Positions 1,131 to 62,679 of a DNA stretch of 64,000 bases are shown here, piece after piece. Position numbers and translations under genes: made by a program. The stretch spans positions 1,606,589-1,670,588 of the forward strand of contig NZ_VKKY01000001.1 of the NCBI RefSeq assembly GCF_008271695.1, read 5' to 3'. Within the stretch, counting starts at the first letter, position 1; every line of letters begins with the position of its first letter. This DNA is from Rufibacter hautae (GTDB lineage: Bacteria > Bacteroidota > Bacteroidia > Cytophagales > Hymenobacteraceae). The notes beneath the pieces are model-generated. The model did no database searches. It saw nothing but the letters and a program-made list of their open reading frames with translations, and was not told the origin of the DNA.

Positions 1131-1165
1131 GTTCTGACCTGATTTCAGGAAAAGAGGCCAGAAAC
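1131..1165. repeat. Dispersed 35-bp palindrome, copy 1
   Basis: Imperfect palindrome GTTCTGACCTGATTTC / GAAAAGAGGCCAGAAAC in the gap between the first two genes. It is a member of the window-wide family described in the findings. Confidence 0.6.
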
Positions 1166-1198
1166 AAAGCATCCTTTCAGGATTGTCCCTACCCGATT

Positions 1199-1285
1199 GT
1201 CATCTTGGAAAGATCTTGTGGGCAAGCTGTAATAGCGCTCACTCAAAGCTTGTCTAGTTCGCTCGCAAGGTCCTTTCAGGATGAC
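1199..1285. repeat. 87-bp imperfect inverted repeat (MITE-like)
   Basis: The ends GTCATCTTGGAAAGATCTTG and CAAGGTCCTTTCAGGATGAC are near-complementary over about 20 bp, and an inner pair (GCAAGCT / AGCTTG) lies around the loop. There is no coding frame and no transposase nearby. The structure resembles a small non-autonomous palindromic element. Confidence 0.5.
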
Positions 1286-1360
1286 AAAGTAGAGAGAAAG
1301 AGACGGAAAAGAAGAGAGAAGGCTTGGCGGGGAGTTTACGCCTTTCCCGGTTAACCCATC

Positions 1361-1384
1361 CCTACCCCTCCCAGGAGGGGAATT
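1361..1384. repeat. CCCCTCC/GGAGGGG palindrome, copy A
   Basis: Contains CCTACCCCTCCCAGGAGGGG followed by AAT. It matches the copies at 31362-31384 and 37628-37650 except for one base in the loop. All three lie in gene-free DNA and in the same orientation. Confidence 0.7.
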
Positions 1385-1410
1385 CTTGTTATTCCGATTC
1401 AATCAATCAA

Positions 1411-2301
1411 TCAATTACTTAGCGTAAGCTGGAATTGCGGGGTGGCGAAAGAGATGGCATCCCCTTCGCGTTGGCTGGTGCTTACCCATTTGCCTTGGTG
1501 GTAGATCCAGCCGTTGGGGGTGCGTTGGTCAGGGCCGTAGCATCTGATACTGGGCTCGTAGGAGATTCTGGCGGGTACTTCTTTGGCGCCGGTCTCAGGA
1601 TCAACGGCCTCATAGCGGTTCTGCTTGATCACGAGCCACTCAAACGCGATGAAGAAACCCTTGGCCGGCATCTGCAGGTCGTGCTGGCTTACATCCAGGG
1701 TCACGGTTTTGATGCCTTTCGGGGCTGTACCCAGGAGAGGTGTGGAAAGCAGATCGGGGCCGGGGGCACCGCCTTCGCCTATCCGCAGGAGGCGCAGTTT
1801 AAAGGAGGCATTTTTAAGGTTACTCAGGGTCACGAGCGAAATCTGGTCCAGGAAAGGCGTGGCAGCATAGCCGGGTTTGTAAGGAATGTACTGGGCTACA
1901 ATCCAGGGCGTGCCGTTGCTCCCGAAGGAATACTCCGTATTATCGTCGAGTTTGTTGATGACGAACTTGCTGCGTTTGGTGCTTTTCTTCACTGTGACCT
2001 CGTTGAGGGCCACCGCCGAAGGCACCAACGCAATGCGCAGGCTCCCGCCAGAGATGGGAAGGCGCATTCGCTCATAGCCTAAACAAGAAATGACCAAGGT
2101 TTTTCCCTGCAGCCCCACAGCGGCAAACCCGAACTCGCCCTTTTCAGAGGAAGTGGTACCCAAGTTCTCGTCCTCCACCCAGATGTTGGCGAAGGCCACC
2201 GGCTTGCCCGTGGCTCTGTCGGTGATGGTGCCTTTCACCTGGCCAAACCCGGTGCCGGCAAAAAACAAGAATACCAAGAACAGGGAGAAAACGTGTTTCA
2301 T
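1411..2301 (-). CDS. Secreted carboxypeptidase-like regulatory domain protein
   Basis: 296 residues if translation starts at the ATG at 2301. The longer frame to 2409 only adds residues ahead of a clear signal peptide (M-K-H-V-F, hydrophobic core, cleavage near G-F-G-Q). Residues 22-100 fit the CarboxypepD_reg-like beta-sandwich (Pfam PF13715): VKGTITDRATGKPVAFANIW, then G-T-T-S-S-E-K-G-E-F and C-L-G-Y-E. The remaining 190 residues match no family I can name. In Bacteroidota such domains occur on secreted or outer-membrane proteins and TonB receptors. There is no plug or barrel here, so a periplasmic or surface role is likely. It is probably transcribed alone. A dispersed palindrome sits 27 nt upstream of the start. 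Confidence 0.75.
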   Translation of the reverse strand: MKHVFSLFLVFLFFAGTGFGQVKGTITDRATGKPVAFANIWVEDENLGTTSSEKGEFGFAAVGLQGKTLVISCLGYERMRLPISGGSLRIALVPSAVALNEVTVKKSTKRSKFVINKLDDNTEYSFGSNGTPWIVAQYIPYKPGYAATPFLDQISLVTLSNLKNASFKLRLLRIGEGGAPGPDLLSTPLLGTAPKGIKTVTLDVSQHDLQMPAKGFFIAFEWLVIKQNRYEAVDPETGAKEVPARISYEPSIRCYGPDQRTPNGWIYHQGKWVSTSQREGDAISFATPQFQLTLSN

Positions 2302-2327
2302 GCAGCGCGAGAATGGGATAGAAACTA

Positions 2328-2362
2328 TTTCGGGGCTGCTTTGTAGAAAACAGCCCCGAAAC
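2328..2362. repeat. Dispersed palindrome, copy 2
   Basis: TTTCGGGGCTG and CAGCCCCGAAA form perfect 11-bp outer arms around a 13-nt centre. It lies just upstream of the minus-strand start at 2301. Confidence 0.65.
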
Positions 2363-2441
2363 GGCCATTGTTGATTGAAGAGAGTAATCTTTCTGTCAAC
2401 GCCGGGCAAGGCAACTTATTTAGAAACCGGCTCTAAATTTT

Positions 2442-3551
2442 TCATTCCTCTTTGATGCGGTACACATCGGCGGTGACAGCATTTTTATCTGTTTTACGTT
2501 CGTCTCTGGGGCTATCGAAAACCACTAGCAAATGCTCCTCGTCATAGATGCCCAGACCTTCAGCTTTGTCCAGGCCCGTATGGGAACCGCTGCCGTGGGG
2601 CACGTCAAAGAGGTGGTCCAGTTCTTTGCGGTGCACGATCTGCTCGCCCTCTACCGATTGCACCATGGCGTTAGGCCAGCGGTACACGGCAATAGTGCCA
2701 TCTAGGTCCATGGTGGGGCCCGCCAAGATATAGAGGTCATTGTCTTTCACGCGCAGTTCCCGCACGCCTTTGCCCACCATGTGCAGGAAGTGTTTTTTGT
2801 AGAGCGAGCCGTCTTTGTTGGCCTTGAGCTGCAGGGTGCCTTTCTCCTCCCCGTCTTCCAACTGAAGTTCCACCACCATTGACCAACCGCGCAACACCGG
2901 GCCGCGCAGCCCCACAAAGATGCGGTTCTCGTGTACGGCCAGGCCTTCAATGTCAAACCCGTTGTCTTTCCCCGGAATGGGCAGGAAATCTTTCAAGTGG
3001 ATGTCCTCCTGGAAGGCATCCATGAGTTGGTTTCCGTGCTTGGAGCTGGCTAGTTGGGCGGCACGTAGCTTTTTGGAGGAATCCTCGGGGTCAGCGCACT
3101 TTTTGGCCAGGGTATATTCGCCGGTCTCGGGGTCATGCACCAGCGGGATGCGGGCCAGCAGGTACCGGTTGGGGTCTGAGGAGACTTTGGCCAGCCGCTT
3201 GATCTGCTTTTCCACGGAATCTTCCTTGCGTGGTTTCTTGCGCTTGAGGCTGTGCGAACCCACGAGCCAAAGGTAGCCCCCGCCTTCGCCCAGGCCTTCA
3301 ATGTCAATCTCTGAGTTGGTGCCGTCGGGCAGGTCCAAGTACTGGCTCAGGTCAAAATGCACGTGCTCGCCAAAGGTCTGGTCACCGGTGAGTTTCAGGC
3401 GCTCCAGGGTGGTTTGCTCGTCGCAGCTCATCCAGAGGTAATCGCCGGTGCGAAGTACGGCGGAGAGACCGTCGCGCACGTGTTTGCCGGTGGCGGTGAT
3501 GCTGTGCTCAGACTCAAAGTGCAGTTGAACGGTGAAAGCGGGGCTTTTCAT
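2442..3551 (-). CDS. DUF3616 domain protein
   Basis: 369 residues from the ATG at 3551; an alternative in-frame start at 3590 would add 13 residues of unlikely composition. The pattern fits the DUF3616 family: a repeated 'DIEGLG...YLWLVGSHS' strand, then 'FDIEGLAVHENRIFVGLRGP' and 'KAEGLGIYDEEHLLVVFDSP'. The repeats of D/K-x-E-G-L followed by a hydrophobic strand suggest a beta-propeller. No signal peptide is seen, so it is probably cytoplasmic. No catalytic function is established for the family. It is preceded by a secreted small protein on the same strand, separated by a terminator-like hairpin, so the two are probably independent. Confidence 0.75.
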   Translation of the reverse strand: MKSPAFTVQLHFESEHSITATGKHVRDGLSAVLRTGDYLWMSCDEQTTLERLKLTGDQTFGEHVHFDLSQYLDLPDGTNSEIDIEGLGEGGGYLWLVGSHSLKRKKPRKEDSVEKQIKRLAKVSSDPNRYLLARIPLVHDPETGEYTLAKKCADPEDSSKKLRAAQLASSKHGNQLMDAFQEDIHLKDFLPIPGKDNGFDIEGLAVHENRIFVGLRGPVLRGWSMVVELQLEDGEEKGTLQLKANKDGSLYKKHFLHMVGKGVRELRVKDNDLYILAGPTMDLDGTIAVYRWPNAMVQSVEGEQIVHRKELDHLFDVPHGSGSHTGLDKAEGLGIYDEEHLLVVFDSPRDERKTDKNAVTADVYRIKEE

Positions 3552-3592
3552 GGTTGGTTTTTGGTTGGGTGAGCGCCTGTGTGACGGCAAGG

Positions 3593-3628
3593 GTTTTGAG
3601 GCCCTTTTCCCTGAAACAAGGCAGAAAC
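3593..3628. repeat. Dispersed palindrome, copy 3
   Basis: GTTTTGAGGCCCTTTTC / GAAACAAGGCAGAAAC, imperfect. It lies between two minus-strand genes and is followed by the hairpin at 3633. Confidence 0.5.
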
Positions 3629-3632
3629 AGAA

Positions 3633-3660
3633 CGCGACAACCCCGGGCAGAGTTGTCGCG
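3633..3660 (-). terminator. Hairpin terminator for the 3687-4172 gene
   Basis: CGCGACAAC (3633-3641) pairs perfectly with GTTGTCGCG (3652-3660). Read on the minus strand it is followed by TTCTGTTTCTG and lies 26 nt beyond the stop of the upstream minus-strand gene. Confidence 0.6.
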
Positions 3661-3686
3661 CTTAGGAGCAGAAGCGGAAAAAGAAT

Positions 3687-4172
3687 TTATCCCTCGTCAG
3701 ATTCAGAGGATTCTTCCAGGTTGCTATCCTCGGCGTTTTTAAAGTTGGGGAACGCTTTGTTGCCCTCTTTGATGGCTTTGTCAAGAGCCGGGTTCGCCTG
3801 CAGGCGTTGGGCCACGGCCGGGTTCAGCATCACCTCAAAGATGGTCTTGAAGTAAGGCTTGGCCTGGAACCGCTTTTCAAACGCCTCTTTCTCGGCGCCT
3901 TTTAAACCCTTGTGGTCTTGGGCCCACTTCTCCAGCTCGGGTTTGAGTTTGTGCATCTCGGCACCGGCCTCGTCTGAGGCGCTCTTGATCAGGGCGATGG
4001 TTTTCTGGTCGTTTTTCTCCAGAAAGGCCGCTTTCATCTTGGTGGCATAGGTGTTCAGGATCTTGTCCAGCTTCTGCTCGGTAGGGCTGATGCCCGCCGC
4101 CTGCGCCGTGAGCATGAACAGGGAGAAAACCATGCTTAGAAGCCCGGAGGCCATCCACTTTGTCTTTTTCAT
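3687..4172 (-). CDS. Small secreted protein of unknown function
   Basis: 161 residues from the ATG at 4172, which opens a typical signal peptide (M-K-K-T-K, hydrophobic core, cleavage near A-Q-A-A). The mature part is charged and predicted helical, rich in Lys, Glu and Ala, and ends in an acidic Glu/Ser/Asp tail. I do not recognise a family. It lies 72 nt downstream of the HlyD adaptor gene on the same strand, so it could be the last gene of that export operon. That suggests a periplasmic accessory role only by context. Confidence 0.6.
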   Translation of the reverse strand: MKKTKWMASGLLSMVFSLFMLTAQAAGISPTEQKLDKILNTYATKMKAAFLEKNDQKTIALIKSASDEAGAEMHKLKPELEKWAQDHKGLKGAEKEAFEKRFQAKPYFKTIFEVMLNPAVAQRLQANPALDKAIKEGNKAFPNFKNAEDSNLEESSESDEG

Positions 4173-5360: not shown

Positions 5361-5365
5361 TTTCT

Positions 5366-5398: not shown

Positions 5399-5434
5399 AT
5401 GTCAAATCTCCGGTTTTTAAGATGCCGCAGAGGT

Positions 5435-5470
5435 GTTTTGGTGTCGTTTTCTAAAAATCAGGCGCTAAAC
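5435..5470. repeat. Dispersed palindrome, copy 4 (degenerate)
   Basis: GTTTTGGTGTCGTTTTC / AAAATCAGGCGCTAAAC. It starts 6 nt past the stop of the permease gene, inside the export operon. Confidence 0.4.
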
Positions 5471-5475
5471 AGAAT

Positions 5476-6726: not shown

Positions 6727-6773
6727 TTTTGGGAGTTCTGCGTCTTGAGTCTCTAGTTCTGAGTCTTTGGTAT

Positions 6774-6808
6774 CTTTAGGCCCGTTTTCCGGAAATCAGG
6801 TGGAAAAC
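6774..6808. repeat. Dispersed palindrome, copy 5 (intra-operonic)
   Basis: CTTTAGGCCCGTTTTCC / GGAAATCAGGTGGAAAAC. It lies in the 147-nt spacer between the two permease genes. Confidence 0.5.
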
Positions 6809-6873
6809 AGCTTCTGGGTTCAAGTAGAGGCAGGCGTGGGGGCGCCCTTCTGCAACCTCTTTTTAATTCCTGA

Positions 6874-8950: not shown

Positions 8951-8992
8951 GCTGTTTTGGGCCCGATTTTCTTAAAACCTGCCCAAAACAGC
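8951..8992. repeat. Dispersed palindrome, copy 6 (perfect outer arms)
   Basis: GCTGTTTTGGG and CCCAAAACAGC are perfect 11-bp arms around GCCCGATTTTC and TTAAAACCTG. It lies upstream of the export operon. Confidence 0.7.
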
Positions 8993-9096
8993 CTCTGTGA
9001 AAGCGACTTACCTTATTTGTAGCAATCACCAATTATTTATTACAACTCTTTCAAGACAATTATAGAGCGTTTCTCCCCTATGCTGCGGCGGTAAAT

Positions 9097-9133
9097 TGTT
9101 TTAGGGCCTATTTTTTAAAAACAGCTTTGAAAT
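9097..9133. repeat. Dispersed palindrome, copy 7 (degenerate)
   Basis: TTGTTTTAGGGCCTATTTT / AAAAACAGCTTTGAAAT, imperfect. It lies in the 364-bp gene-free gap 8856-9219. Apart from copies 6 and 7 and the terminator at 9165, this gap holds an AT-rich stretch (9010-9065) in which I see no gene. Confidence 0.4.
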
Positions 9134-9164
9134 AGGCTATCGGCTACACAGCCATTAGGCCCAA

Positions 9165-9194
9165 CAAAAAAGCCGCTCCTGTTTAGGAGCGGCT
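9165..9194 (-). terminator. Rho-independent terminator of the 9220-10080 gene
   Basis: AGCCGCTCCT (9171-9180) and AGGAGCGGCT (9185-9194) form a perfect 10-bp stem with a 4-nt loop. Read on the minus strand it is followed by a run of T at 9166-9170. It lies 26 nt beyond the stop codon. Confidence 0.9.
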
Positions 9195-9219
9195 TCTCTG
9201 AAAATGGGCAGGAAACAGG

Positions 9220-11153: not shown

Positions 11154-11174
11154 GTTCTTCTTTTTGACTTTTGG

Positions 11175-11205
11175 AAGGAGCCTTTAGGGGCTCCTTTCGC
11201 ATTTT
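11175..11205 (+). terminator. Terminator of the oxygenase gene
   Basis: AAGGAGCC (11175-11182) and GGCTCCTT (11189-11196) form an 8-bp stem with a 6-nt loop, followed by TCGCATTTT. It begins 22 nt after the stop. Confidence 0.75.
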
Positions 11206-11232
11206 AAGTCTATTTTTATAAAACAGGCCTAA
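11202..11232. repeat. Dispersed palindrome, copy 8 (degenerate)
   Basis: TTTTAAGTCTATTTTTATAA / AACAGGCCTAAGAG, overlapping the tail of the terminator. Downstream, 11307-11321 holds a small CGTAGC/GCTACG palindrome. Confidence 0.4.
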
Positions 11233-11354
11233 GAGCACACTTAAAATTTGCCTATGGTGCTACAAAGGGCCATAGCAAGAACCGGCGTTCGCACTTTTAT
11301 CACCTTCGTAGCGCTGCTACGAGGCTCAAAAACTGATTTCGCAGAACCTTACTC

Positions 11355-12596: not shown

Positions 12597-12600
12597 GAGT

Positions 12601-12636
12601 GCTTTCGGCCCGTTTCTCAGAAAACAATCTTAAAAC
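12601..12636. repeat. Dispersed palindrome, copy 9
   Basis: GCTTTCGGCCCGTTTCTC / GAAAACAATCTTAAAAC, starting 4 nt after the chrA stop codon. Confidence 0.45.
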
Positions 12637-12638
12637 AA

Positions 12639-12673
12639 AAAGCCCTGTAAAGATAAAATCCTCACAGGGCTTT
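12639..12673. terminator. Bidirectional terminator between chrA and rfbA
   Basis: AAAGCCCTGT (12639-12648) and ACAGGGCTTT (12664-12673) form a perfect 10-bp stem between two convergent genes. A-rich on the left and T-rich on the right, it can serve both strands. Confidence 0.8.
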
Positions 12674-12692
12674 CTGTCTATCTATACAGCCT

Positions 12693-14580: not shown

Positions 14581-14744
14581 AGGGGAATTGAATAAGGAAT
14601 TAAAAAATTAAAATACGTTTGAGAGTTACTTCAAGAAAACTGGCTTAAAAACACAGTTCCTTTTTCACCCAATTTGATTCTTTTGAATATGGTGTAATCC
14701 CATTTATAAGGAATCTTTATTCTGCTTTGTAGCCAGTTTAAACA

Positions 14745-14794
14745 AAGATGCGTTTACAGGCTGTTTCCATGAAAACAGCCTGTAAACGCATCTT
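14745..14794. repeat. Dispersed palindrome, copy 10 (22-bp perfect arms)
   Basis: The left arm starts AAGATGCGTTTACAGG and the right arm ends CCTGTAAACGCATCTT; 22 of 22 bases pair around a 6-nt loop. It is the strongest copy of the family. It lies between the WbpP-like gene and rfbB, inside the operon, 18 nt beyond the rfbB stop on the minus strand. The rest of the 231-bp spacer is AT-rich without a gene. Confidence 0.85.
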
Positions 14795-18198: not shown

Positions 18199-18200
18199 AG

Positions 18201-20916: not shown

Positions 20917-20925
20917 AGACAGCCT

Positions 20926-20960
20926 CTTCTGGGCCTATTTAGAAAAAACAGCCTTAAAAC
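20926..20960. repeat. Dispersed palindrome, copy 12
   Basis: CTTCTGGGCCTATTTAG / AAAAACAGCCTTAAAAC, beginning 9 nt after the ribD stop codon. Confidence 0.45.
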
Positions 20961-21067
20961 AGGAAGCCTGTTCTTTCCGTTTCCTGCAGCATACCACCAA
21001 AAGTTGCGTCAGGGAACCCCTAAGGCTACCTTTGCCGTTCAAGAAAACGTTGTGCTACACAGATCAT

Positions 21068-21588: not shown

Positions 21589-21629
21589 TACTTGGTACTA
21601 CGTATCAGGTAACACGACTCTAAACTTGC

Positions 21630-21664
21630 CGTTTTAGGCTCGATTTCTGAAAATACCCTTCAAA
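21630..21664. repeat. Dispersed palindrome, copy 13 (degenerate)
   Basis: CGTTTTAGGCTCGATTTCTG / AAAATACCCTTCAAA, directly before the terminator at 21665. Confidence 0.4.
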
Positions 21665-21706
21665 CGAAGAAGCCTCATCTTATCTAGATGAGGCTTCTTC
21701 GTTTTA
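21665..21706. terminator. Strong bidirectional terminator between msrC and psd
   Basis: CGAAGAAGCCTCATCT (21665-21680) and AGATGAGGCTTCTTCG (21686-21701) pair perfectly over 16 bp, with TTTTAT after it, between convergent genes. Confidence 0.92.
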
Positions 21707-24774: not shown

Positions 24775-24820
24775 TTAAAAGGATTGGTAAGACGGCGTAA
24801 GGCAGCAAAAGGCCCGCGGC

Positions 24821-24856
24821 TGTTTAAAGGCTGATTTCAGGAAAAGGGCTTAGAAA
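24821..24856. repeat. Dispersed palindrome, copy 14
   Basis: GTTTAAAGGCTGATTTC / GAAAAGGGCTTAGAAAC, overlapping the C-terminal end of the CPBP gene and its short spacer. Confidence 0.45.
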
Positions 24857-25794
24857 CGGGATTCTTCCTCTGCGGGAACCGGCAAGCGCCGGAAAGAGGT
24901 GTACAGGCCGTATAACAGTACAGCGGTAAGCCCCAAAGAAATCAAAGACAAAGACCAGGAGTTAGGCTCCGTGGATTCCACGTTCATGGTTACGGCCTGG
25001 CGTTGCGCCAGGAACATCATGAGCACCATGAACCCGTTATTCATGAAGTGCCCGATGATAGGCACCCAGATATTCCCAGACCACCAGTACAGGTACCCGA
25101 AGAGCAGGCCCAGCATAATACGCGGCACCACGCCGTAGAACTGCAAGTGAATGATCCCGAAGATGATAGCAGACACCCAGATGGCTAGGTGTGGGTTGCG
25201 CCACCAGCGCTGCAGTTCCTGCTGCACAATGCCCCTGAACGCCAGTTCCTCGCCAATGGCGGGCAGCACCGCAAACACCACCATGCCCAGAACCAATTGC
25301 GGGATGGTGTTGATCTTGGTCAGCTCCAGGGTCAGTTCCCGCAGGGCATCTTCCTTGGCTTTGGCCCAGCGCTCAAACCCTTCCAGAAAAGCCGGAAAGT
25401 CTACGGTAGCATTCCAGTGCACCACCCAGGAGGAAGCCGGCAGAATCACTAGCAGCAACACAGCGCTACCTAAAAGCAGGTAAAACGGCACCACGGCCCT
25501 AGGCGACAGAAAAGCGGCAGGTTTGTAAGCATTCACCCGCAGGAAAGCCAGTGAGGCCACCGTGAACCCCACAAAGTGCACCATCCCCTGAAACAGCACC
25601 AACGCGCTGCGGCTCTCAGGGTAAGCACTCGGTTTGGAAAGCATCTCGGCGGTCTCCACCACCCCGTAGCCCCAGATCATTTTCACCAGCACCACCGCCA
25701 GGAAATTCCCGATGAACAGCCCTGCCACCACGAACACGATAAACAACAAAAGTGACTTTAACGGATGCAGGGTTGGGGAGATGAAACCTTTCAT
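24850..25794 (-). CDS. CPBP-family intramembrane glutamic endopeptidase
   Basis: 314 residues, about eight helices. The catalytic motifs are Glu182-Glu183 and Arg187 in 'GEELAFRG', His216 in 'GIIHLQFYG', and His249/Asn253 in 'GHFMNNGF'. These define the Abi/CAAX-protease (CPBP) superfamily. Substrates of bacterial members are mostly unknown; Rce1-like prenyl-protein processing, bacteriocin immunity and self-processing are all known in the family. It shares a symmetric divergent promoter region with dusB. Confidence 0.88.
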   Translation of the reverse strand: MKGFISPTLHPLKSLLLFIVFVVAGLFIGNFLAVVLVKMIWGYGVVETAEMLSKPSAYPESRSALVLFQGMVHFVGFTVASLAFLRVNAYKPAAFLSPRAVVPFYLLLGSAVLLLVILPASSWVVHWNATVDFPAFLEGFERWAKAKEDALRELTLELTKINTIPQLVLGMVVFAVLPAIGEELAFRGIVQQELQRWWRNPHLAIWVSAIIFGIIHLQFYGVVPRIMLGLLFGYLYWWSGNIWVPIIGHFMNNGFMVLMMFLAQRQAVTMNVESTEPNSWSLSLISLGLTAVLLYGLYTSFRRLPVPAEEESRF

Positions 25795-26864: not shown

Positions 26865-26918
26865 CAAAGAAGCGCTTTAGGGCTGATTTCCAAAAATCGG
26901 CCCTGAAGCGCTTCTTTG
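26865..26918. repeat. Dispersed palindrome, copy 15 (25-bp arms)
   Basis: The outer arms CAAAGAAGCGCTT and AAGCGCTTCTTTG are perfect and the inner arms AGGGCTGATTT / AAATCGGCCCT have one mismatch. It starts 15 nt after the dusB stop and is followed by TTTTC, so it could also terminate transcription. Confidence 0.85.
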
Positions 26919-27095: not shown

Positions 27096-27111
27096 GTCTG
27101 CGCCAGTTCCT

Positions 27112-27145
27112 TTTACAAGCTGTTTTACAAAATCAGGGCTAAAAC
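27112..27145. repeat. Dispersed palindrome, copy 16
   Basis: TTTTACAAGCTGTTTTAC / AAAATCAGGGCTAAAAC, upstream of the EamA promoter. Confidence 0.5.
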
Positions 27146-27199
27146 AGATTCAGTCCTTCTATCCTTCACTCAATCTCTCATTCGTTTAGAAGCTTCCCT

Positions 27200-30569: not shown

Positions 30570-31310
30570 ATGCCCAACCGCCGCCTCACCGTCTCCGTGC
30601 CCCAACCCTGCCACCAGGATTGGCACGCCATGTCACCTGAGCTTCAGGGCCGTTTTTGCCAAAACTGCGCTAAAACAGTAGTGGATTTCACCGCTATGTC
30701 TGACGCCGAAGTGGTGAATTGGCTTACTAAGCAGGAAGGTCGTACCTGTGGAAGGCTCAGTGAAAAGCAGTTAGGAAGAGAGTTAGTCGCCACTGCCCCA
30801 AGGAACCGATGGACTTGGCGAGCTGCGGTACTGGGTTTATCGGTGTGGTTAAGCACGAAGACAGTAGAGGCACACCCCTCTCCTGCTTTCCCATTGTCTA
30901 TCAGAGACGCAGCGCCCAAATCAGAAATTCCTCAAAAAGCTTTCGCCGCAGATAGCTTAGTAGTACTTAAAGGAAGAATACTGGATGCGACAACTAATAC
31001 CCCAATGCCAGGCACAACGGTACTACTCAAAGGCACTACCGTGTCCACCCCCACAGATGTGAACGGGTATTTTTCTTTGGGACTTCCCATAGGAATACAA
31101 CCCGAAGAACAAACGGTTATTTTCTCTTTCATCGGCTACCAAACTCAGGAGAGAAAGGTGGCGGAATTATTGAGAACCTCAGAAGTAACCATTCTCCTCT
31201 CCCAAGACACAAGCTTCATGGGAGAAACTGTTATAGTCGGTGGCGCCTTCTGGTATAAGTGGTATTCTCCACGTGGTCTTTACTACAGGGTTAAAAACCT
31301 ATTCCGCTGA
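30570..31310 (+). CDS. Regulatory-domain protein with Cys-rich N-terminus
   Basis: 246 residues. The N-terminus 'PCHQDWHAMSPELQGRFCQNCAKTVVDFTAMSD' has a C-x(12-16)-C-x2-C pattern typical of a Bacteroidota family that joins this motif to a single membrane helix (here about 83-98) and a carboxypeptidase-like regulatory domain (about 130-215: 'LKGRILDATTNTPMPGTTVL', 'IGYQTQERK'). It is likely anchored in the inner membrane with the Ig-like domain outside. Function is unknown; relatives are often described only as regulatory-domain proteins. Confidence 0.7.
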   Translation: MPNRRLTVSVPQPCHQDWHAMSPELQGRFCQNCAKTVVDFTAMSDAEVVNWLTKQEGRTCGRLSEKQLGRELVATAPRNRWTWRAAVLGLSVWLSTKTVEAHPSPAFPLSIRDAAPKSEIPQKAFAADSLVVLKGRILDATTNTPMPGTTVLLKGTTVSTPTDVNGYFSLGLPIGIQPEEQTVIFSFIGYQTQERKVAELLRTSEVTILLSQDTSFMGETVIVGGAFWYKWYSPRGLYYRVKNLFR

Positions 31311-31361
31311 TTGCGTTTCTAGGGTGTTTTAGGGTAAACAAGCCAAAAGCACTACCCACTC

Positions 31362-31384
31362 CCTACCCCTCCGAGGAGGGGAAT
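31362..31384. repeat. CCCCTCC/GGAGGGG palindrome, copy B
   Basis: CCTACCCCTCCGAGGAGGGG followed by AAT; identical to the copy at 37628-37650. Confidence 0.75.
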
Positions 31385-31937
31385 CCCACAATGCGTCAAG
31401 AAGCGGCTGAACGGCAGTTTTGGTTGTCGGTGATAACACCAACAACGGCGAGGAAAGCTGAAGCAAGATATGCAAGGGCTCTCTTGAGAGGTCCTTGTAG
31501 GGGTTATGTTCTTTGCGGCAGAACTAGGGAGACAAGGCAGTGCCTGGTCTCTACATTGTAAAATAACCCAGAATGAATAACCCATCCAAACGCTAAGGCT
31601 GTATGTTTCCTGCGGCAGGTCGGGGCGAAGGCCTACAGTGAGGCCGAGCACCGGCCTGACGCACGCTTTAACAGCTCAAGCAGTAATGGCCTACGTGTGC
31701 TATGAAACAAAGGACGGCAGCGGGGTGGTACCTTTACTGAAGAAAAGACTGTTTGAGCGTCAGCGAGTTTCTTTTCTTCTTGATTCTTTTGGTTACTTTT
31801 CTCATCAAGGAGAAAAGTGACAAACGCCCGCAGACCGCATCTGCAGCCCCGAGGCTTGATAAGGAAGGGAGTAGGAAGTAGAGGCAGAAGGAAAGTCACG
31901 AAAGTAAATCCGCGCCAAAGTTGTGCAAGGCAGTTTT

Positions 31938-32004
31938 GAGGCTTGCGCCTCACTGAAGTTGCAAACTTCAGCCCAAAGTAGGTCCAAGTTAAAAACTTGA
32001 ACCA
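31938..32004. repeat. Three-hairpin 67-bp element, copy 1
   Basis: Three consecutive inverted repeats: GAGGC/GCCTC, TGAAGTT/AACTTCA and GGTCCAAGTT/AACTTGAACC. The copy at 37544-37610 has the same length and order, with compensatory base changes in the stems. Confidence 0.75.
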
Positions 32005-32033
32005 GGAGATAGAAAATAGAATACAAACTTTCT

Positions 32034-32070
32034 GTTTAGCACCTCTTTTCCAGAAAACAGTCCTAAAACA
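32034..32070. repeat. Dispersed palindrome, copy 17
   Basis: TGTTTAGCACCTCTTTTCC / GAAAACAGTCCTAAAAC, ending 3 nt before the stop of the sensor kinase gene on the minus strand. Confidence 0.5.
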
Positions 32071-32072
32071 AC

Positions 32073-34803: not shown

Positions 34804-34877
34804 GTAGGGGCAATCCCTTGTGGTTGCCCTAATACAGGAGCAGACACAAAAGGGCAACCACAAGGGATTGCCCCTAC
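34804..34877. repeat. 27-bp element as a perfect inverted pair
   Basis: GTAGGGGCAATCCCTTGTGG plus TTGCCCT (34804-34830) and its exact reverse complement (34851-34877) flank a 20-nt loop. A third exact copy is at 41055-41081. Confidence 0.85.
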
Positions 34878-34880
34878 ATC

Positions 34881-34916
34881 CGTTTTAAGCCTGTTTTCCT
34901 AAAAATAGGCTTGATA
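34881..34916. repeat. Dispersed palindrome, copy 18
   Basis: CGTTTTAAGCCTGTTTTCC / AAAAATAGGCTTGATA, 36 nt before the phosphodiester glycosidase gene. Confidence 0.5.
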
Positions 34917-34952
34917 CAGACAACATGATTGCCTACGCTTTATCTTGGCGGA

Positions 34953-35926: not shown

Positions 35927-35970
35927 AACCGTTTCTGGCCTACTTTCTTGAAAACAGGCTGGAAACGGTT
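35927..35970. repeat. Dispersed palindrome, copy 19
   Basis: AACCGTTTCTGGCC / GGCTGGAAACGGTT arms around TACTTTCTTGAAAACA, 20 nt after the stop codon. Confidence 0.7.
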
Positions 35971-36426: not shown

Positions 36427-37500
36427 ATGGCGACTTACCATGTTATAGGTATTATGTCGGGCACTTCGTTAGACGGAGTTGACTTGGCTTATTGCAGATT
36501 TACGTATAATGACGACAATTGGATATATAAAATACTTAATACTGAAACAGTTCCATATTCAAATATTTGGGAAAAGCGCCTGGCGGGCCTCACGGAGGTC
36601 TCGGCCGCTGAAATAATCGCCACAGATCGCGCCTACGGCCACTATCTAGGCGAGCTGACCAAAGACTTTGTCACGAAAAATAATTTGGAGGTGGACTTCA
36701 TCGCCTCGCACGGGCACACGGTTTTCCACCAGCCCCAGCTGCACATCACGTTCCAGGTGGGCAGCGGCGCCTACCTGGCCGCCGAGGCCGGTTTGCCCGT
36801 GGTCTGCGACTTCAGAGCCCTGGACATCGCCCTGGGCGGACAAGGTGCTCCATTGGTACCTATTGGCGACCGACTGTTGTTCTCTGCGTATGATTTCTGC
36901 CTGAACCTGGGCGGCATCTCCAATATCTCGCAGGAAGGCCCAGACCACCGCGTGGCGTTTGACATTTCCTGCTGCAACATGCTCCTGAACCCCCTGGCCG
37001 AGCAGCTAGGACAGCCCTATGACAAAAACGGAGACATCGCCCGCACCGGCCAGTTTGACCAGGACCTCTTCGATCAACTCAACGAGCCCGCCTATTTTAC
37101 GGCTCCTTCCCCAAAATCAATCGGAAAAGAGTGGGCCGATACTTACAGTCTCAAAGCACTGCAGGCCTCTAACGCCACCGTAGAGGACAAATTGCACACC
37201 GCCTGTCACCACATTGCCTGGCAAATAGCGCAATCGGTGCGGCGCTACACGCCTCAGGGCCAGGGCAAACTCCTGCTTACTGGTGGCGGCGCCTTCAACT
37301 CTTTTTTGGTGGAGCAGATCAGGTATTACCTAGGCCCCAACTTTGAGGTAGTAGTACCCGAGCCCGAGCTGGTCAACTTCAAAGAAGCCCTCATCTTTGC
37401 GTTTCTGGGCGTACTGCGCTGGCGCCAGGAACCCAACTGCCTCCGCAGCGTCACCGGTGCCCGCCACGACAACTGCGGCGGCGCCATCTATTGGAACTGA
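36427..37500 (+). CDS. anmK: Anhydro-N-acetylmuramic acid kinase
   Basis: 357 residues. 'VIGIMSGTSLDGVDLAY' is the phosphate-binding motif of the family; 'IASHGHTVFHQPQ', 'CDFRALDIALGGQGAPLVPIGD', 'LNLGGISNIS' and 'LLLTGGGAFNSFL' follow in order. It phosphorylates 1,6-anhydro-MurNAc while cleaving the anhydro ring, for cell-wall recycling. The first 100-150 bp are notably AT-rich against the rest of the gene. The gene is followed at once by a dispersed palindrome. Confidence 0.94.
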   Translation: MATYHVIGIMSGTSLDGVDLAYCRFTYNDDNWIYKILNTETVPYSNIWEKRLAGLTEVSAAEIIATDRAYGHYLGELTKDFVTKNNLEVDFIASHGHTVFHQPQLHITFQVGSGAYLAAEAGLPVVCDFRALDIALGGQGAPLVPIGDRLLFSAYDFCLNLGGISNISQEGPDHRVAFDISCCNMLLNPLAEQLGQPYDKNGDIARTGQFDQDLFDQLNEPAYFTAPSPKSIGKEWADTYSLKALQASNATVEDKLHTACHHIAWQIAQSVRRYTPQGQGKLLLTGGGAFNSFLVEQIRYYLGPNFEVVVPEPELVNFKEALIFAFLGVLRWRQEPNCLRSVTGARHDNCGGAIYWN

Positions 37501-37535
37501 GTTTTTGGGATGTTTTTCGGGAAACGGGTCTAAAT
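37501..37535. repeat. Dispersed palindrome, copy 20 (degenerate)
   Basis: GTTTTTGGGATGTTTTTC / GGGAAACGGGTCTAAA, directly after the anmK stop codon. Confidence 0.45.
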
Positions 37536-37543
37536 GAGATTCG

Positions 37544-37610
37544 GAGGCTCTCGCCTCACGGCAGTTGCAAACTGCCGGTCATGTTGGGTCCAATTCACAG
37601 ACTTGAACCA
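37544..37610. repeat. Three-hairpin 67-bp element, copy 2
   Basis: The same three-stem layout as 31938-32004: GAGGC/GCCTC, CGGCAGTT/AACTGCCG and GGGTCCAA/TTGAACC. Stem 2 differs by several bases on each side that keep pairing. Confidence 0.75.
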
Positions 37611-37627
37611 GGTAAAGTTAACCCACC

Positions 37628-37650
37628 CCTACCCCTCCGAGGAGGGGAAT
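37628..37650. repeat. CCCCTCC/GGAGGGG palindrome, copy C
   Basis: CCTACCCCTCCGAGGAGGGG followed by AAT, 17 bp after the three-hairpin element. The rest of 37651-38030 holds no supported gene. Confidence 0.75.
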
Positions 37651-38030
37651 AAAACCTATCCATGGTTCCCTCCTTGGCAAATGTTAGGCGGGTATATCGC
37701 TGTTTCGGAAAGCAAAGGCTTTGGCCGAGTACACCAATTCCAGCCTTTCGATTGAGCGCCTTGTCAGGTTCCGGTGCCGTCAGGCATTGCGACTGAAAGG
37801 AGCAAAGGAAGCTTGCGCAGCGCGAGGCCGGAAGGCGGGGCCTCGCGGCCGTGAGCGCACGGAGCCCAGCCATGCAACAACACAGCTTATGCACCCACGC
37901 AAACAGCAACGCCACACCAGCAAAAGCGGACTACACAAACAAAAGAATCGGTAAACACTAGATACCCACGGCACAGCCATTAGAGGAGAATAATCTTAAA
38001 ATTCCCATTAGGCTAACAAGCGTTATCCCG

Positions 38031-39342: not shown

Positions 39343-39408
39343 CCAAACACCCCAACCGTTTTGCCCCTGTTTTTATGAAATCGGGTTAAAAACGGCTGGG
39401 GTGTTTGG
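39343..39408. repeat. Dispersed palindrome, copy 21 (long, 20-bp arms)
   Basis: CCAAACACCCCAACCGTTTT and AAAACGGCTGGGGTGTTTGG pair with a single mismatch around CCCCTGTTTTTATGAAATCG-like centre. It is 52 nt after the dehydrogenase stop. Confidence 0.8.
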
Positions 39409-41238: not shown

Positions 41239-41288
41239 AATCCCTGTTTCAGAGCCGATTACTCAAAATCAGCCCTGAAACAGGGATT
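41239..41288. repeat. Dispersed palindrome, copy 22
   Basis: AATCCCTGTTTCAG and CTGAAACAGGGATT form perfect 14-bp outer arms; centre AGCCGATTACTCAAAATCAGC. It lies 21 nt beyond the 3' end of the minus-strand TerB-like gene and is followed by TATTTTA. Confidence 0.8.
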
Positions 41289-42230: not shown

Positions 42231-42276
42231 TTGGCGTTTAGGGGCTGTTTTCTCTAAAACAGCCCTTAAACGCCAA
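42231..42276. repeat. Dispersed palindrome, copy 23 (perfect outer arms)
   Basis: TTGGCGTTTAGGGGCTGTTT and AAACAGCCCTTAAACGCCAA are near-perfect 20-bp arms (one mismatch) around TCTCTA. Confidence 0.85.
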
Positions 42277-43482: not shown

Positions 43483-43496
43483 GCAGACGGGTGCGT

Positions 43497-43536
43497 TCGT
43501 TTTCAGCTTGTTTTCGGGAAAATACGACAAAAACGG
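43497..43536. repeat. Dispersed palindrome, copy 24
   Basis: TCGTTTTCAGCTTGTTTTC / GAAAATACGACAAAAACG, 15 nt upstream of the serine hydrolase start. The rest of 43540-43800 has no gene. Confidence 0.5.
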
Positions 43537-43804
43537 TTCACTCCTCTTTTCTATTCAGTGGGAAAACCAGGGCATCCAACTTCTAACAGATTTTGTATTT
43601 GGAATGAAAACCTAGTTACTTAGCCCGGCTACCTCAAGACATTGCCTGCCTCGTCCTCCTTTCCTTTGACCTCCGCAGAAATTTTCACCAGAAACTTACT
43701 CACCGGCTAGCATGATAGGTTCTTGCAAATGAATCTTTTACCGCTTTTCTAGCCACCTACGCCTTCGTTTTACTTAAAATTTTATCTACTTTTTTGGGCC
43801 AGCA

Positions 43805-43873: not shown

Positions 43874-43948
43874 GGGATGTTAGCTCAGCTGGTTCAGAGC
43901 ATCTGCCTTACAAGCAGAGGGTCGCTGGTTCGAATCCAGCACGTCCCA
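43874..43948 (+). tRNA. tRNA-Val (anticodon TAC), copy 1
   Basis: 75 nt. Acceptor GGGATGT / ACGTCCC, anticodon stem TCTGC / GCAGA with loop CTTACAA (anticodon TAC), T-loop TTCGAAT. CCA is not encoded. Followed by its own hairpin terminator. Confidence 0.97.
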
Positions 43949-44030: not shown

Positions 44031-44105
44031 GGGATGTTAGCTCAGCTGGTTCAGAGCATCTGCCTTACAAGCAGAGGGTCGCTGGTTCGAATCCAGCACG
44101 TCCCA
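44031..44105 (+). tRNA. tRNA-Val (anticodon TAC), copy 2
   Basis: Identical over all 75 nt to the copy at 43874. The spacer between the copies is unrelated to any gene, apart from the terminator. Confidence 0.97.
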
Positions 44106-44113
44106 CTTAAGTA

Positions 44114-44156
44114 AAAAGCACTTATCAGGTTCGCCTGGTAAGTGCTTTTTCGTTTT
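44114..44156 (+). terminator. Terminator after the second tRNA-Val
   Basis: AAAAAGCACTTA (44114-44125) and TAAGTGCTTTTT (44139-44150) form a 12-bp stem followed by CGTTTTT. The gap 44157-44500 beyond it shows no gene and no repeat. Confidence 0.92.
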
Positions 44157-47304: not shown

Positions 47305-47346
47305 AGCGTTTTTAAGCTGATTAGCGGAAAACAGCCCCAAAACGGA
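47305..47346. repeat. Dispersed palindrome, copy 25
   Basis: GCGTTTTTAAGCTGATTAGC / GGAAAACAGCCCCAAAACG, in the 375-bp divergent gap between the PAP2-like and LytS-like genes. No other gene is seen in this gap. Confidence 0.5.
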
Positions 47347-49267: not shown

Positions 49268-49310
49268 GTTACAGAATTTGCCCGATTTTAAAAAAACAGG
49301 CCTTAAAACA
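49268..49310. repeat. Dispersed palindrome, copy 26
   Basis: TTGCCCGATTTTAAAA / AAACAGGCCTTAAAACAG, about 57 nt after the regulator stop codon and before the convergent H-NOX gene. Confidence 0.4.
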
Positions 49311-49375
49311 GATTGCTTGTCCGCAGTTTTCCCACAAACCGGTTTCATGGATGAGCATCATGGATGCCTGCTATT

Positions 49376-51762: not shown

Positions 51763-51812
51763 TGCCAGTTTTAGGGCTGTTTTCTGTAAATCGGGCCTAA
51801 AACGGCTTTGCC
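51763..51812. repeat. Dispersed palindrome, copy 27
   Basis: CCAGTTTTAGGGCTGTTTTC / AAATCGGGCCTAAAACGG arms, 10 nt beyond the stop of the CusB-like gene. Confidence 0.7.
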
Positions 51813-58879: not shown

Positions 58880-58925
58880 AGAAAGAAGGAATTATCCTGC
58901 CAGCGGCCGGCCCATAGCCCTGGTA

Positions 58926-58963
58926 CGTTTTCGGCCTGTTTAGATGAAAACAGACCGAAAACA
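58926..58963. repeat. Dispersed palindrome, copy 28
   Basis: CGTTTTCGGCCTGTTTAG / GAAAACAGACCGAAAAC, between the HMBD lipoprotein gene and cusA within the operon. Confidence 0.7.
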
Positions 58964-59020
58964 GCAAACTAGTTTTGGGCATCGAGGGAACCGGAACCGC
59001 TTGGGGCAAGACCTTAAGAC

Positions 59021-60048: not shown

Positions 60049-60064
60049 CTGGCTTGAGATTCAA

Positions 60065-60104
60065 CTGTTTACTGCCTTAACGCGCTGTTTACTGCCTTAA
60101 CGCG
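60065..60104 (-). repeat. Tandem 20-bp repeat in the leader of the efflux locus
   Basis: CTGTTTACTGCCTTAACGCG occurs twice back to back (60065-60084 and 60085-60104). It lies between the promoter at 60147 and the start codon at 60048, so it is inside the transcript. Confidence 0.7.
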
Positions 60105-60146
60105 CTCTGTTGGCCAGAGTTGTGCAAGACATTACTTTATTACCTG

Positions 60147-60154
60147 CAAAAGTA
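60147..60154 (-). promoter_or_regulatory. -7 promoter element of the efflux locus (TACTTTTG)
   Basis: An exact TAnnTTTG match on the minus strand, 99 nt before the ATG at 60048, with a TTG about 15 nt upstream. Confidence 0.6.
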
Positions 60155-60420
60155 AGGACCTCCCCACAACTGCTGTTATACAATTTTATTCAGTTGTTAC
60201 ATAAATCAGATCACCGCGCTTGAAGACTGAACATCCTTCAGCATCTCTAAAATATGTAAAACCAAATATTAACTCAACCTATTCACGCTTGCTTTTGGGT
60301 TCTCTATAAATGCTTAGAAGCGCAACTTTGTTTCTAAATTACAGGGTCATGCCTGATTAAAGTTCCTGCGTTGACTTGCCTTGCAGAATTTCCGCGCCAC
60401 TAACCATGTCATTAGCTGAG

Positions 60421-60456
60421 GCTGTTTAGCGCCTGTTTTTCTAAAATCCGCCTGTT
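60421..60456. repeat. Dispersed palindrome, copy 29
   Basis: GCTGTTTAGCGCCTGTTTTTC / AAAATCCGCCTGTTTT, in the gene-free divergent region 60155-60615. This region has no gene that I can support. Confidence 0.4.
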
Positions 60457-60615
60457 TTTACTGGATGTAGTTTCCCCTTTGCAAGACCAAGCCAAGCCTT
60501 CTAACAGCGGTATGGTTTGCCAATAGAACCAGCTTGGGACCTACCCGTATAGCATCCGCTGATCTGTCTCATGTTCCTGCAGGAACCAAGGAGCATTACA
60601 ATTCAGCAAATTTGA

Positions 60616-60623
60616 TATCTTCG
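60616..60623 (+). promoter_or_regulatory. Probable -7 element (TATCTTCG) of the APC permease
   Basis: Seven of eight positions fit TAnnTTTG. It is 142 nt before the ATG at 60765, leaving a leader of about 130 nt. Confidence 0.4.
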
Positions 60624-60764
60624 TCTCAGACTTCCCTCGTATAGGGGTTGGGTTGGAGACACGCTTACCAAATCTTTGCCTGTTTAGCTTTCCTAGGTGC
60701 TGAAAAGCGCCTGGTGCTTGGGTCCATAAGCTGCTACGCTGTAGGCTTGTTACAAAAAAGACGG

Positions 60765-62531
60765 ATGAAAAAAGACCTTACAAACTCAATCTCGCCTACG
60801 CACGCGCCTAAACTGAAAGAGTTGGCGGCCACTGCCATATGCGGGAACGATATTACCTCCTCCTGCCTGTATGTATCGGCGTTGGCCATCATCTATTCGG
60901 GCCAGTATGCCTGGGTTGCGCTCCTGATGGTGGGCGGAGTGCTGTTCCTGTTCCGGAGCATCTACGCGGAGGTGGTGGGCGCCTTGCCCCTGAACGGCGG
61001 GGCCTACAACGCGCTGCTGAACACCACCAGCAAGAGCACGGCCTCTATGGCGGCCTGTCTCACCCTGCTGTCTTACATGGCTACCGCCGTGATCTCGGCC
61101 AGCGAGGCCATGCACTACGTGCACCATCTGTGGGAAGGGCTCCCCATTATCTATGCGACCATTGGGTTGCTGGCGTTTTTCATGGGCCTGACCATCATGG
61201 GTATTGGTGAGTCATCTATTGTAGCCATCGTCATTTTCATCACGCACATTTCCACGCTCACCCTGCTGGTGCTGGTAGGGTTCTTCTACCTGTTCAACCA
61301 CGGGTTTGACACGCTGGCCCTGAACTACAGCCAACCACTGCAGGGCAGCATCTGGCGAGCCCTTTTCTATGGATTTGCGGCAGCCATGCTGGGGATTTCG
61401 GGGTTTGAGAGCTCGGCTAACTTTGTGGAGGAGCAGGCCCCTGGCGTATTCGCCAAGACCTTGCGCAACATGTGGCTGGCCGTTACCATCTTCAACCCGC
61501 TTACGGCTTTCCTGGCCATCGCCATTATTCCCATGGCCGAGGTAGCCGAGAACCAGACCGCTCTGCTGGCTTACCTGGGAGAAATCTCGGGCGGCCATTG
61601 GCTTTCCATCCTGGTCTCTGTCAATGCCGCCATGGTGCTGAGCGGGGCAGTGCTCACGTCTTACGTGGGCGTGACCGGCCTGGTGCACCGCATGACGCTG
61701 GACCGCTGTCTGCCCCAGTTCCTCCTGATCACGAACAAAAGAGGATCGGCGTTCCTGATCATGATCAGTTTCTTCCTGCTGTGCGTGTCCATCCTGTTGA
61801 TTACCGGCGGAGACATAGCAGCCCTGGCAGGGGTGTACACCATCTCGTTCCTGGCCGTGATGACCTTGTTTGGGGTGGGCAATATCCTGCTCAAGATGCG
61901 CCGCAACCGCCTGCCCCGCCCGGTGCGTGCGCGGGGTATTACGGTCTTCATCGCCATCTTGGCTGTTTTAGCGGCGCTGGTGGGCAATGCCCTCTTAAAC
62001 CCAGAGTATGTGTGGGTGTTCCTGAAGTATTTCATCCCAACGGTTTCGGTGGTGTTCATCATGCTGTTCCGGATCAGGCTGCTCCGGCTCTTCGCGTACC
62101 TGTTGCAGAAGATTGAGAAGCCCCTGGCTAAGATTATCCCCATCACCTCCTACGCCACCAAGCGCCTCATCACCGATATCCGCTCGCAGGAGTTCGTCTT
62201 CTTCACCCGCGGTGATAACATTGCCAACATCAACCAGGTCATGCGCTACATTATTGAGAACGAGCAAACCAGCCGCATCAAAATAGTGAACGTGCTGCGG
62301 GAGGGCGAGGAACCGCCCAAAAAGCTGATGCACGAGGTGGAGGTGCTGGATCGGGCCTATCCTGAACTGGAGGTGGATTTTATTGTCATCAGAGGGCACT
62401 TCGGGCCCGATCTTATCCAGGAGCTGTCTTCCAAGTGGCAAATCCCGAAAAACTTCATGTTCATCGGCTCGCCCGGAGACCGTTTCATCTACGGTTTGCA
62501 GGAACTGGGCGGCGTGCGACTAGTAATTTAA
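60765..62531 (+). CDS. APC-family amino-acid permease with cytoplasmic C-terminal domain
   Basis: 588 residues from the ATG at 60765; the longer frame from a TTG at 60648 has no support. Twelve helices, starting with 'LAATAICGNDITSSCLYVSALAIIYSG'; helix 1 and 'VVGALPLNGGAYNALLNTTSKS' fit the APC superfamily. The last 130 residues ('SYATKRLITDIRSQEFVFFTRGDNIANINQVMRYI...') form a soluble domain of universal-stress-like type with 'FMFIGSPGDRFIYGL'. It is probably a proton-coupled amino-acid transporter with a nucleotide-binding-like sensor domain. Substrate unknown. Confidence 0.85.
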   Translation: MKKDLTNSISPTHAPKLKELAATAICGNDITSSCLYVSALAIIYSGQYAWVALLMVGGVLFLFRSIYAEVVGALPLNGGAYNALLNTTSKSTASMAACLTLLSYMATAVISASEAMHYVHHLWEGLPIIYATIGLLAFFMGLTIMGIGESSIVAIVIFITHISTLTLLVLVGFFYLFNHGFDTLALNYSQPLQGSIWRALFYGFAAAMLGISGFESSANFVEEQAPGVFAKTLRNMWLAVTIFNPLTAFLAIAIIPMAEVAENQTALLAYLGEISGGHWLSILVSVNAAMVLSGAVLTSYVGVTGLVHRMTLDRCLPQFLLITNKRGSAFLIMISFFLLCVSILLITGGDIAALAGVYTISFLAVMTLFGVGNILLKMRRNRLPRPVRARGITVFIAILAVLAALVGNALLNPEYVWVFLKYFIPTVSVVFIMLFRIRLLRLFAYLLQKIEKPLAKIIPITSYATKRLITDIRSQEFVFFTRGDNIANINQVMRYIIENEQTSRIKIVNVLREGEEPPKKLMHEVEVLDRAYPELEVDFIVIRGHFGPDLIQELSSKWQIPKNFMFIGSPGDRFIYGLQELGGVRLVI

Positions 62532-62541
62532 CCTAGGCTGG

Positions 62542-62580
62542 TCGTTTTACGCCTGTTTTTCTGAATACAGGGTGAAAACA
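62542..62580. repeat. Dispersed palindrome, copy 30
   Basis: GTCGTTTTACGCCTGTTTTTC / GAATACAGGGTGAAAACA, 11 nt after the permease stop codon. Confidence 0.5.
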
Positions 62581-62589
62581 ACCCGCCAC

Positions 62590-62632
62590 AAAAAGCCCGG
62601 ACTGCCATGGAGCAGTCCGGGCTTTTTGCCTT
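62590..62632 (+). terminator. Terminator of the APC permease
   Basis: AAAAAGCCCGGACTGC (62590-62605) and GCAGTCCGGGCTTTTT (62612-62627), a perfect 16-bp stem with a 6-nt loop, followed by GCCTT. Confidence 0.92.
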
Positions 62633-62634
62633 CT

Positions 62635-62679
62635 TTCCTGAAAAGGCCCGCAAAACGTTTGTGGCCCTTTTCAGGAAAA
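62635..62679. repeat. Inverted palindrome between the permease and the propeller gene
   Basis: TTCCTGAAAAGGCCCGCAAA and GTGGCCCTTTTCAGGAAAA form near-perfect arms of about 18 bp around AACGTTT. It resembles the dispersed family read inside out. Confidence 0.6.

Follow-up and report, generated by a model that had tools for sequence, protein, structure and literature searches.

What keeps one short palindrome recurring in the gaps between the genes of Rufibacter hautae? A 64-kb stretch of this genome (the window) had been described in an initial annotation as holding a dispersed family of about 30 such palindromes, and the roles listed for them were a hairpin or terminator in the transcript, a repetitive extragenic palindrome (REP) mobilised in trans, or a DNA-binding site. 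The DNA-binding site fits best, a hairpin or terminator fits a minority of copies, and mobilisation as a REP is not supported. Our main reading, to which we give a probability of roughly 0.55, is that the copies are docking sites for a symmetric DNA-binding protein, placed mostly at the ends of transcription units and acting there as a boundary; we infer both the binding of the protein and its action.

The family was delimited with a half-site model trained on the window and 20 further stretches of the same genome (464 kb in all). This genome, of 5.84 Mb, is called G000, and other G numbers are labels of the genomes compared with it. The model settled on the half yGTTTtnrGsCyGTTTTyn, directly adjoined by its mirror. 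The whole motif, yGTTTtnrGsCyGTTTTy-nn-mirror, is 36 bp long and two-fold symmetric and contains four TT/AA steps, each half being made of two GTTTT blocks 11 bp apart and the halves meeting at a 2-bp centre. At score 25 the model made 232 calls in the 464 kb, approximately one per 2 kb, against none in dinucleotide-shuffled DNA, the control by which the initial annotation proposed that the family be judged; at score 13 there were 340 calls against 9. Densities of 0.50–0.57 per kb extrapolate to about 3,000 copies per genome. Thirty-five calls scoring at least 25 lie inside the window (Table 1), and 31 of the 32 places listed initially carry or overlap one, the other (19804) scoring 21. Two of the listed places stand only in part: 60421 is a call, but a weak one (25.3), and 62635 overlaps the call at 62618–62659 but is mainly a separate hairpin. 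Four calls are additional to that list. The exact core then proposed, GTTTTAGGCCTGTTTTC, is absent from the window; the half-arm, searched across the genome, gave 5 exact matches and 374 with up to two mismatches, against 1 for the reversed control. As first supposed, no named family was found to match. Two tRNAs were the sole Rfam matches above gathering score in the window, and we found no description of this palindrome family in the literature, judged by titles and abstract openings.

The geometry of the sites resembles that of operators in position-specific conservation, fixed centre spacing and two-fold symmetry, the spacing within each half being less well tested. With overlapping matches left unmerged, centre spacing was 0 in 177 matches, −1 in 27, +1 in 25 and −2 in one, with none beyond. 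The 161 tandem-gap sites that could be oriented by their upstream gene showed neither a difference between left and right nor a T-tract behind them. No end tag was seen either, since in the 12 positions flanking each end no base rose above 0.37, and the end columns were symmetric. Lone half-sites (score 16) outside full sites were not above chance (5, against a shuffled mean of 2.3), while 284 lay within full sites, and the idea of the half-site as a tag in its own right was rejected.

Conservation is concentrated on the TT steps. In 62 orthologous pairs of sites from G000 and G295, these steps (half-positions 5–6 and 16–17) had changed in 0–6%, on both arms, compared with 24–53% in the flanks and 11–45% in the rest of the site. 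T stands at 88–100% at the same positions in seven genomes, in sites chosen by the model itself, and the TT steps are 89–97% conserved beside neighbours at 55–83%. The two arms, by contrast with what a hairpin needs, are independent of each other at the majority of the variable core positions in five genomes (244, 68, 70, 32 and 22 sites), and pairing at half-positions 9–18 stays near the arm-shuffled level in all five. Between G000 and G295, single changes broke a pair (143) as often as they restored one (138), and 15 of 92 double changes kept a pair. The idea that pairing rather than sequence is maintained thus fails for most copies, whose TT/AA steps are kept as sequence, and survives for a minority, such as those at 41243 and 42233. 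Taken together, TT conservation, independent arms, a fixed centre, paired halves and symmetry are the marks of a double-stranded DNA site for a symmetric protein. Instead, a palindromic mobile element might have spread in an ancient burst in the ancestor of Rufibacter and left the family behind as a neutral relic, which would account for its genus-wide occurrence, its absence from the sister genera sampled, its orthologous places and its many degenerate copies. Neutral decay would be even along the site, however, and here it is not; sites are also present or absent in agreement in 102 of 107 gaps (see below), and we give this explanation a slim chance.

One lineage writes the site differently. 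In G302, half-positions 14–15 are C (0.94) and A (0.69), where six other genomes have mostly G and T; the TT steps stay, and the dialect is read from 32 sites picked out by a model to which the changed letters are a penalty. The shift of the inner block from CTGTTTT to CTCATTT is specific to the G302 lineage (loci L259–L261 and L179). At the orthologues of 42233 and 41243 the inner block has changed but the species still share the outer arms and some of the flanking sequence, so these are orthologous sites altered in place. As a pattern in sequence, a consensus shift throughout a lineage suggests a trans-acting reader whose specificity has changed.

The position of the sites relative to genes is equally marked. 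Among G000 gaps of 50–200 bp, 29 of 36 convergent ones contain a site at score 25 and 1 of 20 divergent ones does (p = 2.5e-8), which bears out the preference for positions past stop codons noticed at the start; the corresponding figures in other Rufibacter are 30/37 and 5/35. In tandem gaps below 500 bp, the median site starts 35 nt past the stop codon in G000 and 55 nt in other Rufibacter, where 11 of 344 sites lie within called genes. Two strong sites (scores 38 and 39) were seen deep in long called genes, at about 4154 of L013 and 17518 of L015.

Sites are kept at these places. For the gaps lying between 28147 and 42306 of the window, orthologues in 15 other Rufibacter were examined, counting sites from score 11. 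Four convergent gaps had a site in 54 of 55 orthologues, and a fifth, of 15 bp, in 2 of 14. Tandem gaps had one in 10/14, 11/13, 10/10 and 0/15, and four divergent gaps (72–185 bp in the window) in 2 of 58, both with some 700–800 extra bases. Across 107 gaps shared by G000 and G295, 61 had sites in both genomes, 41 in neither and 5 in one only. When the two genomes are aligned, 69 of 80 sites have a counterpart at the matching place in G295. The remaining 11 comprise cases at the score threshold, gaps that are misaligned or have been rebuilt, and a single short deletion. Neither a clean insertion nor an empty site was seen in the 107 gaps.

Ordinary terminators exist besides the sites. Replacement of terminators by sites was considered and not seen: terminator-like hairpins with a T-tract (score 12) occur at approximately 41% of 142 3' ends in G000 and at 0.26 of those in other Rufibacter, compared with 0.23–0.60 in sister genera. 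In tandem gaps a separate terminator is more frequent at ends with a site (47/137) than without (13/108; p = 5e-5), which argues that transcription-unit ends, and not merely free space, are marked there, a pattern missing from convergent gaps. Site and terminator are at most 8 bp apart in 59 of 151 cases, where random placement gave 34 expected and a maximum of 45 in 500, and the site is itself terminator-like (stem and T-tract) at 24 of 265 ends that have one. Sites and terminators therefore share places, yet most sites are not the terminator. In comparison with intrinsic (Rho-independent) terminators, the likeness is in the 3'-end position, and a minority of Rufibacter copies double as such; most have neither paired arms nor a T-tract and have separate terminators alongside.

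The same double-stranded site could instead be read by a chromosome-structuring or topoisomerase-type protein, for which 3' ends would be no more than harmless places to dock. One site per 2 kb at score 25 would suit such a protein, and the scarcity of sites in short divergent gaps, their presence in long ones and their rarity in genes would then reflect avoidance of promoters and coding sequence. TT blocks and G+C-rich blocks also follow each other about every half turn of the helix, as they might in bendable DNA. Gyrase binds bacterial interspersed mosaic elements (BIMEs). BIMEs are described, in the part of the source available, as protein-bound, and a role in organising the chromosome has been suggested for them (PMC2817692). 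However, each arm needs T rather than A, a sign that the sequence is read directly; helical phase is lost at the 8-bp step from the inner TT to AA; and the excess of separate terminators at tandem-gap ends with a site indicates that transcription-unit ends are marked there. We consider this alternative unlikely, though worth keeping in view.

Several results weigh against the docking-site reading, among them those on pairing. When an extended hairpin is defined by at least 14 of 18 paired variable positions, 15 of 219 copies in G000 qualify (0.5 expected), 5 of 54 in G291 (0.1 expected) and 8 of 46 in G196 plus G228 (0.6 expected); G299 is weakly above chance, with 10 of 65 (5.0 expected). Pairing beats 1000 shuffles at four of seven orthologous loci, a count inflated by the kinship of the species. 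At 41243 and 42233, several different pair types occupy one position in different species. In G000, positions 7 and 8 and some outer ones pair above chance (z 6.5 and 4.2 at 7 and 8). A minority of copies have also turned into hairpins, which probably act as terminators. Complementary outer arms, which the initial annotation had ascribed to the family, are real in the 15 of 219, the copies it compared belonging to this minority, and the other copies look independent. That the family as a whole consists of RNA hairpins, whether intrinsic terminators or 3'-end stabilisers, is highly improbable. The extended hairpins, the compensatory changes between species at the two loci and the 24 terminator-like ends speak for it, but the arms of the other copies are independent, their centre is fixed, T-tract and strand asymmetry are lacking and ordinary terminators stand beside them; the arm test refutes it for most copies. 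A hairpin with general covariation was accordingly rejected for most copies and kept for the minority.

The remaining objections concern the protein, the model and the gaps. No binding protein turned up, no gene-content search for one having been made. The site model itself favours TT. A one-base insertion or deletion within a half still gives 53–85 matches at score 28, and these were not separated from out-of-register reads of the same sites, so that the test of the 11-bp spacing is weaker than that of the centre. Gaps were defined with a home-made gene caller. Divergent gaps above 200 bp contain a site in 27 of 43 cases in G000, the loose score of 12 finds sites in 42 of 64 divergent gaps, and 10 of the 23 divergent gaps common to G000 and G295 hold sites in both; missed genes may account for part of these. 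Within called genes lie 31 of the 232 G000 sites. A smaller share of convergent-gap ends has a separate terminator where a site is present (53/128) than where there is none (13/22), and 27 of 93 terminators preceding a site end 0–6 bp before it, which is awkward for a roadblock.

If docking sites they are, each copy would be bound as double-stranded DNA by a single protein that is specific to the genus, recognises the sequence and works as a dimer or tetramer. Its main contacts would be the four TT/AA steps, in a site whose two halves meet at the fixed 2-bp centre. The sites, some 3,000 per chromosome, lie for the most part at transcription-unit 3' ends, above all between convergent genes. The bound protein would most likely serve as a boundary, blocking read-through transcription or isolating the supercoiling of neighbouring units. 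Tentatively, and with less confidence than we place in docking as such, this may amount to a genome-wide punctuation, in which a protein on the 36-bp palindrome after most transcription units forms a two-way boundary and a change of its specificity in one lineage dragged thousands of sites along.

The family is confined to one genus. With a strict pattern (the motif with up to 3 mismatches), each of 16 Rufibacter genomes has 188–1825 copies. The search of other Hymenobacteraceae proposed initially extended the family no further, giving 0–3 strict copies in 188 genomes outside Rufibacter, with any in 10 of them. A class-wide draw of 198 genomes contained two with a match, G000 itself and one with a single copy. 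By the names of their contigs, 119 stretches among the matches listed belong to species of Rufibacter and one belongs to Sabulibacter ruber. That sister genera carry a hidden relative of the motif was rejected, four 80-kb samples giving 9, 0, 2 and 8 calls against 10, 1, 3 and 6 after shuffling (score 12). Within G000, small contigs are poor in sites: C4 has 2 in 66.6 kb and C5 has 3 in 40 of its 41.8 kb, with suitable gaps filled in 1/12 and 1/8 cases against 113/157 in the chromosome sample. C6 runs counter to this (3 sites in 7.5 kb); C7 has none in 5.3 kb, and C2 of G302 has 1 in 20 kb.

Such a distribution recalls a tag for uptake and self-recognition in natural transformation, like the DNA uptake sequence (DUS) of Neisseria. 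Single DUS copies are frequent in their genomes, and inverted pairs lie near gene ends. The uptake sequences of Neisseria and Haemophilus are likewise, in the excerpts available of that literature, genus-level high-copy motifs with dialects. The thousands of copies in one genus, the dialect of one lineage, the lean to 3' ends and the scarcity on C4, C5 and C2 of G302 all fit. The Rufibacter unit, however, is a 36-bp double site whose lone halves are not above chance, and its copies are degenerate and rare in genes. A role in uptake is therefore very doubtful.

The family also resembles REPs in being a high-copy, short extragenic palindrome found mainly 3' of genes. As far as the excerpted sources go, REPs and BIMEs are short high-copy palindromes mainly between convergent and co-directional genes, REPs fall into GTAG and CGTC superfamilies with an unpaired tag at one end, CGTC occurring in Bacteroidetes among other phyla (PMC3733652), and REP abundance correlates with the presence of rayt, a gene flanked by two inverted copies (PMC2817692). 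Spread in trans by a REP-associated tyrosine transposase (RAYT) would thus be in keeping with the copy number, with the REP-like 3'-end placement (PMC3733652, in the part available) and with the presence of RAYTs in the genus. Four proteins of the genus that were tested score above the NCBIfam cut-off as RAYTs, and Y1_Tnp matches occur in 15 of the 16 genomes. Sites lie on both sides of the gene in 6 of 8 RAYT stretches and in 3 of 6 other stretches with Y1_Tnp genes; background site density is high. The RAYTs do not, however, track copy number: neither Y1_Tnp nor RAYT gives a match in G240, a genome with 1016 strict copies, while RAYT relatives occur in 36 of the 54 genomes searched from sister genera, with 0–3 strict copies. 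RAYT as the present driver of spread was rejected on these grounds. In contrast to REPs and BIMEs, Rufibacter sites are symmetric, without end tag or orientation, mostly without covariation between arms, and in place genus-wide; clean insertions are missing from the 107 gaps, and C4 and C5 together hold only 5 sites in 107 kb. A REP-type family spread in trans is improbable. RAYTs or their relatives (L235–L242), up to seven matches per genome, were recorded in the 15 genomes with no matching repeat family identified.

Spaced motif pairs are a further point of comparison. An example from Bradyrhizobium, GAATCCAT(N)23ATGGATTC, has 52 copies and is of unknown function in the part of the source available (PMC5217627). 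These are also intergenic palindromic pairs near gene 3' ends, but with 9–125 copies, compared with thousands genus-wide in Rufibacter, where species could be compared (PMC5217627, same excerpt).

Other repeats in the window adjoin some of the sites. A perfect 27-bp inverted repeat with a 20-nt loop (34804–34877) lies directly 5' of the palindrome at 34879. An intergenic repeat of about 400 bp (37544–37956) has at least 11 more whole or partial copies in G000, at 82–93% identity. Another, of about 650 bp (31351–32021), has further copies in other Rufibacter, and six more in G000 were examined, at 71–90% identity in pieces. The possibility that the palindromes are the ends of these longer repeats was rejected, as the repeats align to their copies only outside the full palindrome; the exception is one repeat copy (L220), which begins within it, at 37523. 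Two tRNA genes of equal score (43874–43948 and 44031–44105) are followed by a hairpin at 44113–44150.

Table 1. Palindromic sites called in the window by half-site model score; the sites are palindromes and no strand is assigned (.). New, additional to the initial list; ORF, open reading frame; others, other Rufibacter whose orthologous gap has a site.
Position	Strand	Score	Remarks
1127..1168	.	36.8	
2324..2365	.	40.8	
3590..3631	.	33.6	
5432..5473	.	39.5	
6770..6811	.	35.3	
8951..8992	.	40.7	
9095..9136	.	39.9	
9178..9219	.	31.4	New; overlaps hairpin 9165–9200
11198..11239	.	27.7	Immediately 3' of hairpin 11172–11199
12598..12639	.	36.6	Abuts hairpin 12635–12677
14614..14655	.	25.5	New; weak
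14749..14790	.	40.4	Also extended hairpin 14745–14794, arms 96% complementary
20922..20963	.	36.4	
21628..21668	.	33.3	Abuts hairpin 21662–21704
24819..24860	.	40.3	
26871..26912	.	37.3	Also extended hairpin, −43.6 kcal/mol with flanks
27108..27148	.	35.7	Centre shorter by one base
30638..30679	.	35.6	New; within poorly conserved ORF 30570–31310
31312..31353	.	34.2	
32031..32072	.	41.4	Convergent gap; 15/15 others
34879..34920	.	45.0	Adjoins 27-bp inverted repeat 34804–34877
35928..35969	.	41.5	Convergent gap; 12/13 others
37091..37132	.	28.0	New; within a gene
37498..37539	.	35.8	At stop codon (gene end 37500)
39355..39396	.	42.8	Outer arms paired; 13/13 others
41243..41284	.	38.1	Also extended hairpin, interspecies compensatory changes; 14/14 others
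42233..42274	.	43.8	Also extended hairpin, interspecies compensatory changes; 10/10 others
43496..43537	.	39.0	
47305..47346	.	41.9	
49271..49312	.	26.4	Degenerate
51765..51806	.	45.3	
58924..58965	.	39.9	
60421..60462	.	25.3	Degenerate
62541..62582	.	41.1	9 nt past gene end 62531
62618..62659	.	28.5	Overlaps hairpins 62589–62628 and 62634–62678

If one protein binds these sites, most transcription-unit ends in Rufibacter would carry a dedicated double-stranded DNA site, kept across a genus, and the system would be closer to roadblock termination or to insulators than to REPs. The family offers thousands of natural replicates for the co-evolution of a trans-acting factor and its sites. Extragenic palindromes need be neither hairpins nor mobile.

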